Shown piece by piece: positions 2,551 to 51,296 of a stretch of DNA of 64,000 nt. The position numbers and the translations under genes were made by a program. Position 1 is the stretch's first letter. Every line of letters starts with the position of its first letter. The stretch is from assembly GCA_014804265.1 (NCBI GenBank), contig JAAVAC010000017.1, positions 44,385 through 108,384 on the forward strand. The letters run 5' to 3'. The stretch is from Lachnospiraceae bacterium (GTDB lineage Bacteria > Bacillota > Clostridia > Lachnospirales > Lachnospiraceae). The notes beneath the pieces were generated by a model. The model was given only the letters and a program-made list of their open reading frames with translations. It ran no database searches and was not told the origin of the DNA.

Positions 2551-3768
2551 ATGAATAAATTTGATAAAGAAATACGTAAACTTGCAAAGCAAAGCAACTG
2601 TCCTACAAGTAAAAACTACGAAATAAAAATTAACAATATGTTAGAAGACCTTGGAAAGGAAGCTTCCAGACAGCCGGCAAAAAAAGCTGCCAACCTGCCA
2701 TTTTTTAAAGTTGGCATTGCTGCCTGCGCATTGACCCTGATATGCCTTGTCTCTGTTCCAGTGGCAGCACAGATTATGGACTATGTAAAACAAAGAATGC
2801 TTTCCATGAATGACAAGGAATTTGAGGAAATCGCAGCCTCCAATGATGAACATAATATAACAAGAGAGCATGATACGGAAGCAATAACCTACTCCAGAGA
2901 AATGTCCGAACAAGAAGAGAAACGTTATTCTGAATTATTGGATAAATACGAAAACGAAGGTTTATTTCCGGAAGGAAAATTACAGATTGTGGATAAACTG
3001 GAGAATCCCGAAACTATCGATTCTCTTGTCTATGAAACCTACAACCGAAAACTCTTTTTACCGGAAAAAGAACTGTCAGACGAAGAGTTATTGGAAATCA
3101 TTGATTATTATAGGAAATCTGACTATGTAGTACAAAATTCCGGTCAAGCAAAAGTGATTAAAGAAGCCCTGCAGAAATACCAGTCAGACCCTTATCCAAA
3201 TGCAACGGATCTATCTGAGGAAGAAGCAGCCGCAAAGGCCGCTTTCTATTTAGAAGCCGTATATGGCTTAGATTCTGCCACAATGGATAAGACCGCTGAA
3301 TTTGTAGCAAGTGAAGACCCTATCAGTGACAATTATGCCGACTGGAAAGTGACATTTAAGGGAACCGATGATTTTAATTATATTGTAAATGTATCACAAA
3401 ATACCGGGCTGATTTCATCAATGCAAATATTTAAAGGAGAAACCTTTTATGGCTATCCCAGACAGGCTGCCCAAATAAATGAAACGCTTTACACCTCTGT
3501 ATATGAGCAGACGAAGGACATTTTTGAAAACATGAACCCTTCTTTAGAAATTACAAAAGGCCTGATAGCATATAGTAAGACAGAAGACAATAAAGCAGAC
3601 TATGGCCTATTGGACATTAAATTTTTTACAAGGGACGGTTATTGCTTCTACTTCCAATATATTCTTGAGGAAGATGTTTACGATTTCCTGTATGTATCCC
3701 AATGTGAGTACGATTCCTATTTAGAATCCTCTTGGGGTGATTATCTGGTTATACCTATGGAAGAATAA
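2551..3768 (+). CDS. Predicted membrane-anchored anti-sigma-like protein co-transcribed with the ECF sigma factor
   Basis: Overlaps/abuts the sigma gene; short cytoplasmic N-terminus, one TM (FFKVGIAACALTLICLVSVPVAA), large extracytoplasmic domain. Confidence 0.6.
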   Translation: MNKFDKEIRKLAKQSNCPTSKNYEIKINNMLEDLGKEASRQPAKKAANLPFFKVGIAACALTLICLVSVPVAAQIMDYVKQRMLSMNDKEFEEIAASNDEHNITREHDTEAITYSREMSEQEEKRYSELLDKYENEGLFPEGKLQIVDKLENPETIDSLVYETYNRKLFLPEKELSDEELLEIIDYYRKSDYVVQNSGQAKVIKEALQKYQSDPYPNATDLSEEEAAAKAAFYLEAVYGLDSATMDKTAEFVASEDPISDNYADWKVTFKGTDDFNYIVNVSQNTGLISSMQIFKGETFYGYPRQAAQINETLYTSVYEQTKDIFENMNPSLEITKGLIAYSKTEDNKADYGLLDIKFFTRDGYCFYFQYILEEDVYDFLYVSQCEYDSYLESSWGDYLVIPMEE

Positions 3769-3827: not shown

Positions 3828-3865
3828 GTGGGAGCTGGCATAGCATATGCTATACCAGCTCCCAC
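3828..3865. repeat. Core-less copy (C1) of the dispersed palindromic element family; 38-bp near-perfect palindrome
   Basis: GTGGGAGCTGGcATAGCAT/ATGCTATaCCAGCTCCCAC, flanked by ggatttgataaacagac on the left and taaatatggaaaag on the right, like the other copies. Confidence 0.8.
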
Positions 3866-31029: not shown

Positions 31030-31232
31030 TGTCCAAAACATTAAAATTAGCTTTTTATATGATATAACTTTAAATAATTTTGAAATCTGGGAGAATCAAT
31101 TTTTATATTTTACTTTTTATTAGTAGTCTTAATTTTAAATAAGATATAACATACAATCTTCATTTTCATATTCCTCTCAATTTAAAATATGTAGATTCAA
31201 ATATACCAATCCATAATTCATATCGAAACCCA

Positions 31233-31370
31233 ATAGGAGCTGCAATATAGTAGTTTTGCAGGCCTTCATGAAAGTGTCAGTCCTTACGCACCGTACTTTG
31301 GTGCGTTAGTACTGCTACGCTTTCATAGAGTGCGAACGTGCCCAAAAAACTACTATATTGCAGCTCCTAC
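31233..31370 (-). repeat. Full copy (C2) of the dispersed structured element
   Basis: Minus strand: GTAGGAGCTGCAATATAGTAGTTTT...ACGCACCAAAGTACGGTGCGT...AAAACTACTATATTGCAGCTCCTAT. Confidence 0.9.
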
Positions 31371-31420
31371 GTTCTCTTTCTATATCCCAATTTTTATAAT
31401 CATCTTTCTTCGAAATTAAT

Positions 31421-36971: not shown

Positions 36972-38402
36972 TTATTTACCCATACAAAACTTTGAAAATA
37001 TTTCATTTACCAAATCATCCGAAACCTCTTCTCCAATAATAGTACCTAAAGAAGCATATGCGCTCATGAGATCAATAGAATAAAAATCCTCCGGCATATG
37101 ATCCTCTAAACTTTTCTTTACTAAATGAAGTGAATTTCCTGCATCCATGATTGCTTCTTTATGGCGCATATTTGTAATGAACACTTCATCATTAAAAGAA
37201 ATATCTCCTTTTAAAAACATTTCCTTTACTGCATTTTCAAATAAATCTATTCCAGTATTATCTTTTGTAGAAGTTTTTATAATCCTAATTTGATTAGTCT
37301 CTTCTAACTCATTTTTTTCTTTATTTTCATGGACTGTATTTTTTTTAATTTTCTCCAACAATAATTCTTCCGTTACTACTCCATCTAAATCCGTTTTATT
37401 TAATAAAATAATAGTATTTTTTTCTTTTATTAAAGAAATAATCTGCTCATCGGATTCATCTAAGGGAACAGAAGAATCTACTACATATAAAATCAAATCC
37501 GCATGTAAAGCATATGTGACAGCTCTTTCCACACCGATTTTCTCCACTACATCATCCGTAGAACGAATGCCTGCAGTATCAATCATATTCAGAATAATTC
37601 CATGAAGGGAAATGGATTCCTCCAAAATATCTCTGGTAGTTCCGGCAATATTAGTAACAATCGCCTTTTCCTCTCCAACAAGCAGATTCAGCAAGGAAGA
37701 CTTACCGGCATTTGGCTTTCCTAAAATAACGGTTTGAATGCCTTCCTTTAATATTTTTCCATTTTCAGAGGATTGCAGCAGTTTATCTATCCGTTTTAAT
37801 AATTGTTCTGTCTTTTCTGACAATTCTTCCGGATAACCTTCTAAAGAAATATGCTCCGGATCATCCAGAGCAGATTCTATAAAAGCAATCTCATAAATGA
37901 TTTTTTCCCGAATATCCTTTATTTCCTTGGAAACGGAACCCTTTAATTGATTAACAGAACTTTTCAAGGCAAATTCACTTTTTGAATGAATAATATCCAT
38001 TACCGCTTCTGCCTTTGCTAAATCAATCCTTCCATTTAAAAAGGCCCGCTTCGTAAACTCTCCCGCTTCTGCCGTCCTTGCTCCATACTTGATCACGGTT
38101 TCCAAGATCTTATTCATGACCAAAACACCGCCATGGCAATTGATTTCTACCGTATCCTCCGCTGTAAAACTATTAGGAGCTTTCATAACAGAAACCATGA
38201 CCTCATCAATCAATTCATCTCCATCATAAATAAAACCATAATGTATCGTATGGCTTTTTACATCTGACAATTTTTTTTTCCCATTCCTGGAACGATATAT
38301 TTTATTTACAATGGAAATTGCATCCTCTCCACTGACACGGACAATTCCAATTCCTGAATTTGTCATGCCGGTGGCAATTGCAGCAATAGTATCCGTTTTC
38401 AT
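36972..38402 (-). CDS. mnmE: tRNA modification GTPase MnmE/TrmE
   Basis: TIAAIATGMTNSGIGIVRVSG; GKPNAGKSSLLN; C-terminal FSKFCMGK. Confidence 0.97.
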   Translation of the reverse strand: MKTDTIAAIATGMTNSGIGIVRVSGEDAISIVNKIYRSRNGKKKLSDVKSHTIHYGFIYDGDELIDEVMVSVMKAPNSFTAEDTVEINCHGGVLVMNKILETVIKYGARTAEAGEFTKRAFLNGRIDLAKAEAVMDIIHSKSEFALKSSVNQLKGSVSKEIKDIREKIIYEIAFIESALDDPEHISLEGYPEELSEKTEQLLKRIDKLLQSSENGKILKEGIQTVILGKPNAGKSSLLNLLVGEEKAIVTNIAGTTRDILEESISLHGIILNMIDTAGIRSTDDVVEKIGVERAVTYALHADLILYVVDSSVPLDESDEQIISLIKEKNTIILLNKTDLDGVVTEELLLEKIKKNTVHENKEKNELEETNQIRIIKTSTKDNTGIDLFENAVKEMFLKGDISFNDEVFITNMRHKEAIMDAGNSLHLVKKSLEDHMPEDFYSIDLMSAYASLGTIIGEEVSDDLVNEIFSKFCMGK

Positions 38403-38523
38403 GAGCTGCTCCTGATTGTTTTTCTTGAAAATTTGGTGTATTTGAATAACACTGTAAGTTTACCATAAATTTTTTAAATAGTGAAGAGGAGAAATGAGAA
38501 GGAAAGGTTTTGGATAAGAGGAC

Positions 38524-38670
38524 GTAGGAGTGGGCAGATGATAGATAAGTCTTTTGGCACGCTCTCGCTCTATGAAGACGCAGCGGTACTAACGCACCAA
38601 AATACGGTGCGTAAGGACCGGCGCCTTCATCAAGGCCCGAAAGACTTATCTATCATCTGCCCACTCCTAC
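38524..38670 (+). repeat. Full copy (C3) of the dispersed structured element
   Basis: GTAGGAGTGGGCAGATGATAGATAAGTCTTTTGG ... CCGAAAGACTTATCTATCATCTGCCCACTCCTAC arms around the conserved core. Confidence 0.92.
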
Positions 38671-38817
38671 TGTGTATTGAAAAGCCCTTTTATTCATATT
38701 TGCTTCATAAAAGACATTAGAGCTATAAAAACTTCAAAATAAATATATTTATACTTCCCTGAAATACGAAAACGTAAATTTTTTTACTTTTCTAAGATTA
38801 GAGCTTGAGAAAAAACA

Positions 38818-39043
38818 GCAAAAGAGGAAGGTGGTTGGATTCTCTGCATTGTTTTTGATAAAGCTTTTACTTAACAGCCTGCCCACAACCCAGGGTAAAA
38901 TTGCCATGGACGGTAATTTTAGTCATATTGCGCCATGAAGGGCGCTATATGACGACCCGGCCGCTACCAACAACCTTTCCAGGCTGTTTAGTAAAAGCTT
39001 TATCAAAAACACAGCAGAGAATCCAACCACCTTCCTCTTTTGC
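38818..39043. repeat. Giant quasi-palindrome, 64-nt arms plus two internal hairpins
   Basis: Left arm 38818..38881 pairs with right arm 38980..39043 with few mismatches; internal hairpins AAAATTGCC/GGTAATTTT and GTCATATTGCGCC/GGGCGCTATATGAC. Confidence 0.92.
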
Positions 39044-39065
39044 GTCCTTTTACCAACCTCTATCT

Positions 39066-39698
39066 CTATCTCTTCAAAGCAACAACAACCCTTCTAAAAG
39101 GCTCATCCCCTTCACTATGGGTTATAACATATCTGTCATTCTGCAATGCAGAATGGATAATCCTTCTTTCATAAGGATTCATAGGCTCCAAAGAAACCGA
39201 TCTTTTTGTTCTTTTTACTTTGAAAGCAATATTCTTTGCAAGATTTTCCAGTGTTTCTTTTCTCCGTTGGCGATAATTTTCTGTATCAACCTTTACACGA
39301 ATATAATTTTCTGTATCTTTATTTACTACCAAAGATGTTAAATACTGCAAAGAATCCAGTGTTTGTCCTCTTTTTCCGATTAAAACACCCATTTCATCTC
39401 CTGCCAGGTCTATATCCATATTGTTATCCACATCATCATATTTTACATCAACAGCAACTGTTAATTTCATGGCAGCAAATACTTCATTTAAAAATTCTTT
39501 TGCTTTTCTATCAAGAGATATTTCTTCTTCTTTAATTCTCGCTTTAATTACAGCAGCTTTAGAACCGATTCCTAAAAATCCTAAAGATCCTTCTTCTATT
39601 ACTTCATATTCCAGCTTATCGCTTGTCACTGATAATTTCTGACATGCTTCCGTAATAGCATCATTCACTGTTTTTGCAGAAACTTCAATAAAATCCAT
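39066..39698 (-). CDS. jag: Jag/KhpB RNA-binding protein (KH + R3H)
   Basis: MDFIEVSAKTVNDAITEA; GVLIGKRGQTLDSLQYLTSLVVNK; position after yidC. Confidence 0.95.
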   Translation of the reverse strand: MDFIEVSAKTVNDAITEACQKLSVTSDKLEYEVIEEGSLGFLGIGSKAAVIKARIKEEEISLDRKAKEFLNEVFAAMKLTVAVDVKYDDVDNNMDIDLAGDEMGVLIGKRGQTLDSLQYLTSLVVNKDTENYIRVKVDTENYRQRRKETLENLAKNIAFKVKRTKRSVSLEPMNPYERRIIHSALQNDRYVITHSEGDEPFRRVVVALKR

Positions 39699-51027: not shown

Positions 51028-51064
51028 TGAGAATTGGTTTAGATATAGGTTTTGAATGGGGGAC

Positions 51065-51212
51065 GTGGGAGCAGTCATAGTATATGATAATCTTCTTGGC
51101 ATGCTTTCGCTCTGCAAAGACGCAGCGGTACTAACGCACCAAAATACGGTGCGTAAGTGCCGGCGACTTTGCCAAGGCCCGGAAGATTATCATATACTAT
51201 CACTGCTCCCAC
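51065..51212 (+). repeat. Full copy (C4) of the dispersed structured element
   Basis: GTGGGAGCAGTCATAGTATATGATAATCTTCTTGG ... CCGGAAGATTATCATATACTATCACTGCTCCCAC arms around the conserved core. Confidence 0.92.
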
Positions 51213-51296
51213 TGGGTATTGGAAAACCATATGCTTTATTTTAAATATTTAAATAAATAGTTATTTATGATAAACATCCACTTGGTATGCTGAAAA

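Follow-up and report, generated by a model that had tools for sequence, protein, structure and literature searches.

Integron attC sites have conserved ends, variable arms that are kept complementary and asymmetric unpaired bases. CGTC-tagged REPs are palindromes of 20–40 bp, with stems of 8–9 bp and loops of 4–5 nt, that carry an unpaired CGTC-type tag at one end, form inverted dimers including heterodimers and lie at 3′ extragenic positions, and for which no dedicated transposase was found (Di Nocera et al. 2013, PMC3733652, a paper whose text contains neither Firmicutes nor Clostridi-). The TwoAYGGAY family, discovered computationally (Weinberg et al. 2010, PMC2864571), stands in Rfam as RF01731 with the type Cis-reg, a core of two AYGGAY hairpins and a multistem closure; a CsrA-binding role has been proposed for it from motif similarity (PMC4333381). 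RNAs of the CsrB/RsmZ type, which sequester CsrA, present GGA in apical hexaloops and offer multiple sites per cell, many of them in one sRNA.

The locus considered here lies between mnmE (36972–38402, −) and jag (39066–39698, −) in a 64,000-nt stretch of a Lachnospiraceae genome (the window), a 2.55-Mb MAG that is 73% complete. A first-pass annotation had described a palindrome in this gap as a near-perfect 64-nt inverted repeat enclosing two inner hairpins, and that structure is present. Its arms pair with three mismatched columns, all three of which are fixed throughout the TwoAYGGAY family, and it folds at −137 kcal/mol as RNA (z −20.4 against 200 shuffles) and −85 as DNA (z −18.5), with none of the 200 shuffles coming near. 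The palindrome is real and not an assembly artefact, because independent assemblies of sister species carry it at the same site, and no described IS matched it. Nor is it an unknown class: RF01731 matches it over the full model length, its covariance-model score standing clear of the 43-bit gathering cut-off (Table 1), and the palindrome is one copy of this catalogued, RNA-like family. The Rfam model spans only its middle and ends inside the arms; in those TwoAYGGAY copies whose full length was read, a long stem extends past the model. AYGGAY loops are found family-wide and in loop 1 of the copy at jag–mnmE (ATGGAC), whose loop 2 is degenerate. We know of no demonstrated function for TwoAYGGAY.

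The suspicion, also raised at first pass, that the palindrome belonged to a second class sharing the boundary of a 'core family' proved right, because the TwoAYGGAY hairpin and a second hairpin upstream of it on the Rfam strand, here called class-2, share their ends (GRGGACGYR...TRCTGTNTAT.GAAA). The two are mutually inverted, with a common outer end GRGGACGY and inner end TRCTGTNTATCGAAA, and the resulting layout, GGACG-[class-2 hairpin]-spacer-[TwoAYGGAY hairpin]-CGTCC, measures about 530 bp. Its order and orientation are constant in most copies (in G000, G001, G003 and G004), the spacer ranging from 106 to 352 nt in other copies, and the tag pattern occurs at 65 places versus 11 for a reversed control. 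Since the halves are paired and share inverted ends, the element at this locus extends from outer tag to outer tag (Table 1); the two classes are two halves of one element. Inverted pairs of a single class also exist, class-2/class-2 at loci L036 and L040 and TwoAYGGAY/TwoAYGGAY in another genus (G013). Searched against Rfam, class-2 gave nothing above threshold, and MIR2118 and MIR7504 were rejected as sub-threshold hairpin look-alikes. We consider it probable that the TwoAYGGAY palindrome forms one of the two halves of a dispersed element of the REPIN/BIME kind, which is non-coding and made of two inverted, tagged hairpins and a short spacer.

Table 1. Features of the two-hairpin element between jag and mnmE (positions in the window)
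Feature	Position	Strand	Remarks
Bipartite element, outer tag GGACG to outer tag CGTCC	38520–39047	+	Order and orientation in four species; duplicated copy; empty site
Left half: class-2 hairpin with tag GGACG and conserved core	38520–38676	+	Not in Rfam
Class-2 variable arms	38524–38557 / 38637–38670	+	Stem of 34 bp
Class-2 core	38540–38652	+	Covariance model R1, 124.7 bits
Spacer between halves	38677–38812	.	Fast evolving
Right half: TwoAYGGAY hairpin, inner end AACAG, outer tag CGTCC (39043–39047)	38813–39047	+	
Left arm of 64-bp stem	38818–38881	+	Arm alignment
Right arm of 64-bp stem	38980–39043	+	Arm alignment
Core hairpin 1	38897–38920	+	Apical loop ATGGAC, 38906–38911
Core hairpin 2	38922–38953	+	Apical loop ATGAAG, 38935–38940; GGA lost
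Rfam RF01731 TwoAYGGAY match	38848–39013	+	89.8 bits, full model

Elsewhere in the window, a further class-2 hairpin (51061–51216, +; 126.4 bits) lies downstream of gyrA, just past an apparent intrinsic terminator. Another (31230–31373, −) and a lone class-2 arm (30764, +) are inverted and bracket several TGTTTCACGTGAAACA-like (parS-like) palindromes beside parA, an arrangement that is possibly a decayed class-2/class-2 pair. The near-perfect short palindrome at 3828–3865 (GACGTGGGAGCTGG...CCAGCTCCCAC) has class-2 ends without a core and is a core-deleted remnant, like L353 and L358; at 22187 (−) a lone TwoAYGGAY arm persists with its tag, the core and second arm being gone. Among copies outside the window, a doubled class-2 (L366/L367, G000:C25:3674–3860) consists of a left half with its core, fused to a second left half in inverted orientation, and has GGACG at both ends; fold-back copying or the collapse of an inverted pair could explain it. 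One class-2 subfamily (L187, L359, L368 and L371) has an additional CCCCGAT...ATCGGGG hairpin in its core, and in L207, near 3075–3120, a class-2 5′ end cut off about 24 nt from the tag directly precedes a full copy starting with the same letters.

Both halves are dispersed in many copies. The window's own genome holds 32 TwoAYGGAY matches and at least 61 class-2 matches by covariance model (42 by BLAST). Across 61 relatives, class-2 was found by covariance model in 18, from 13 genera that all belong to the window's own family, and TwoAYGGAY in 10. Scanned across the phylum, at least 45 of 300 genomes carry TwoAYGGAY, a count that may miss carriers since only the best nine or fewer candidates were scored per genome, and 30 of the 45 reach the Rfam cut-off; its strand orientation in other genera is mixed. 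No copy was found on the plasmids, phages and viral contigs searched; carriage by phage or plasmid was therefore rejected, and the result also counts against reading the element as a dispersed repeat that spreads.

The element has been copied whole, and its ends are sharp. Two composites on contig C63, 4.7 kb from each other, resemble one another closely all the way from GGACG to CGTCC, through the spacer, and lie between unrelated flanks. Orthologous sites occur both occupied and empty: at the second of these sites, the sister species G003 (contig C9) has both flanking genes and no element, with about 29 bp in place of about 600, and G005 has a lone, divergent class-2 hairpin. The unit duplication and the empty site are one worked example each, and a target-site duplication was resolved at neither, a further point against the repeat reading. 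Compared with a MITE, the element has the outer inverted tags, no target duplication resolved at its empty site and no parent element found; the tag-only loci inspected as candidates for an autonomous parent with the same tags were decayed or core-deleted copies. In G001, a gene for a 464-aa SLFN_AlbA_2/recG C-terminal-type protein lies between the halves (L164, 3921–5315, −), where the orthologous G003 site has only a spacer of about 235 bp.

Some sites have been retained for a long time. The jag–mnmE element is common to G000, G001 and G004; at this site G002 has lost the class-2 half, and what remains in G003 is one class-2 arm together with a TwoAYGGAY that lacks its core. Because the orthologous site is occupied in sister species (G001, G002 and G004), the jag–mnmE copy predates these species. 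The first-pass annotation had argued from the persistence of so long a palindrome to either recent origin or selection; occupation of the site in these species rules out the former, and the latter, selection or correction, is what the arms described below bear out. With respect to its flanks, the orientation of the element is reversed at two syntenic places (L204/L153 and L194/L156).

In their tags, dimers and location, the elements resemble CGTC-tagged REPs. An unpaired (C)GTCC stands at the outer foot of the TwoAYGGAY hairpin opposite AACAG at the inner foot, with GGACG in the class-2 half, and inverted dimers lie mainly at 3′ extragenic positions. They differ from REPs in size and make-up, with hairpins of roughly 150–235 bp, stems of 34 and 64 bp around conserved multi-hairpin cores, mirrored arms and an occurrence in Lachnospiraceae. 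A true CGTC-tagged REPIN would be moved by a RAYT or IS200-like Y1 (HUH) transposase, whose gene the repeats usually flank, and for such an origin speak, besides the inverted dimers, outward CGTC(C) tags and 3′ extragenic location, the fixed stem mismatches, also seen in REPs (PMC3733652), and the somewhat higher frequency of Y1_Tnp in carriers (33 of 45 versus 136 of 255 other genomes, p 0.014). However, three nearly complete carriers, G001 (99% complete), G027 (100%) and G036 (99%), lack Y1_Tnp, G001 doing so despite 25 TwoAYGGAY and 59 class-2 matches; the single Y1 of the window's own genome, at 146 aa, matches an IS200 TnpA in size and not a RAYT; the hairpins far exceed the 8–9-bp stems of CGTC REPs; and no element was noticed flanking a Y1 gene in an unsystematic look. 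We regard a Y1 mover, which is not co-distributed with the elements, as improbable. The element thus works like a giant paired palindrome of the REPIN/BIME type that belongs to RF01731 and, by its size and the lack of a cognate Y1 transposase, falls outside the REP family. Our preferred reading, a dispersed REPIN/BIME-like repeat, has three more points against it: no transposase is tied to the element, its hairpins are many times larger than those of known REPs, and its highly conserved cores resemble RNA and not merely transposition ends. With attC sites the element shares conserved ends, variable complementary arms and asymmetric unpaired bases, but it is much longer, has conserved cores and occurs as dispersed inverted pairs.

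The two arms of each hairpin match each other far better than copies match one another. Outside fixed columns, and leaving out two more mismatch-prone TwoAYGGAY columns (46 and 47), arms within a copy mismatch at 1.4% in TwoAYGGAY and 1.3% in class-2, as against 21% and 27% expected from copy-to-copy variation. The fixed mismatches of TwoAYGGAY are an AT/GG or AT/TG internal loop and a T.T; the columns excepted in class-2 are two variable ones near the core. At orthologous sites, TwoAYGGAY arms show 22 mirrored versus 26 one-sided substitutions, and indels of 9 nt (L187/L200) and 6 nt (L189/L149) are identical in both arms. Hairpins are 91–93% identical at such sites versus 80%, with many gaps, for spacers; purifying selection also acts on the hairpins. 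In other genera and families, too, a long, variable and mostly Watson–Crick stem surrounds TwoAYGGAY, with 50–77 enclosing pairs and few G-U.

Selection on RNA pairing alone, fixing compensatory substitutions one side at a time without any copying between arms, would account for the slower evolution of hairpins than spacers and for mismatched columns being fixed family-wide. Against it, G-U intermediates show no preference by strand among the arm mismatches (17 versus 21; 9 versus 9), and several arm columns contain all four bases on both arms yet no mismatched copy. The identical 6- and 9-nt indels are hard to produce by stepwise compensation and are the product expected of arm-to-arm template switching, a process that can create and maintain hairpins (PMC8794818). 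One-sided compensation alone thus seems to us quite unlikely, and the arms evolve as if by arm-to-arm copying plus selection. A G-U bias was also considered as a guide to the RNA strand and rejected; the arms have no bias and that of the cores comes from one class-2 pair.

Composites lie mainly in 3′ intergenic slots (genes being simple ORF calls). A gene that adjoins the TwoAYGGAY end and is directed toward the element usually has its stop codon 9–90 nt from it, and the next gene typically starts 75–240 nt past the class-2 end; in tandem gene pairs, TwoAYGGAY adjoins the upstream stop codon in 23 of 29. The Rfam strand is antisense to the adjacent gene in most copies. Together with the long, variable, mirrored stem and membership in a dispersed two-hairpin unit, this sets the copies apart from the Cis-reg entry in Rfam, whose model ends inside the arms, though the core with its two AYGGAY hairpins and multistem closure is the same. 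The only clear excess of promoter-like sites (20 versus 6.4 expected) is on the gene strand of the flank beyond the class-2 end, which fits a predicted promoter of the next gene. The Rfam strand showed no excess, either across 48 spacers or within the upstream flank, and a Rfam-strand promoter in the spacer was rejected.

The loops of the TwoAYGGAY core change little as the stems around them do. Within the genus, GGA is present in 73 of 74 matched hairpin-1 loops and 70 of 71 matched hairpin-2 loops, in keeping with the ANGGA-type apical loop of CsrA-binding RNAs; loop 2 of the jag–mnmE copy is the sole loss among the 71. At eight distant loci, GGA was seen by eye in both apical loops. CsrA is encoded in 43 of 45 TwoAYGGAY genomes versus 179 of 255 others (Fisher p 1.5e-4), in 10 of 10 TwoAYGGAY relatives versus 31 of 51 others (p 0.02) and in 4 of 9 class-2-only genomes (p 0.011 against 10 of 10), all three comparisons being uncorrected for relatedness. 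Given the GGA retained in both loops and the presence of CsrA in nearly all carriers, binding of CsrA by the TwoAYGGAY core, a putative ligand, is a hypothesis to be taken seriously. TwoAYGGAY would then be a multicopy CsrA-binding RNA, transcribed from the Rfam strand, that offers two GGA hexaloops per CsrA dimer and whose dozens of scattered copies either titrate CsrA or keep it tethered to transcripts nearby. We hold this to be quite possible, if somewhat short of probable. The near-universal GGA amid changing stems argues for it, as does the higher frequency of CsrA in TwoAYGGAY genomes than in others or in class-2-only genomes, with the caveat that these statistics ignore phylogeny; the absence of a promoter excess on the Rfam strand, the mostly antisense position of the copies and a carrier (G242, 94% complete) without a CsrA match argue against it, and the class-2 half and the long perfect arms are left unexplained. 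Unlike CsrB/RsmZ, TwoAYGGAY has two sites per dispersed locus, no promoter was found for it and its CsrA binding is predicted only. A CsrA-binding RNA and a dispersed repeat can be compatible.

For the repeat that we favour, we propose that an enzyme moves, or once moved, the unit in the form of hairpin DNA; that template switching or repair within the hairpin would copy one arm onto the other, yielding a near-perfect long stem; and that selection would retain the tags, the cores and those mismatches that are fixed. As part of the upstream gene's mRNA, the stem may act like a 3′-end REP, as a barrier or an RNase III site, and the TwoAYGGAY core, if the Rfam strand is transcribed, probably presents its two GGA loops to one CsrA dimer. 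More speculatively, and as a whole rather doubtful, Clostridia may have a hitherto unrecognised superfamily of mobile repeats built as giant hairpin dimers, with a non-Y1 mover, stems renewed by arm copying and interchangeable structured cores, in which the TwoAYGGAY core is a CsrA ligand and the repeat population sets the free level of this global regulator.

In the light of these results, a so far unexplained Rfam family becomes one half of a dispersed element with two hairpins and gains a partner family, class-2, that Rfam lacks and that numbers about 60 copies per genome in the genus. For the idea that template switching keeps long stems paired, the mirrored arms, with their mirrored indels at orthologous sites, are a ready-made test case. 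Should the loops bind CsrA, a global regulator would be linked to the copy number of the repeat.
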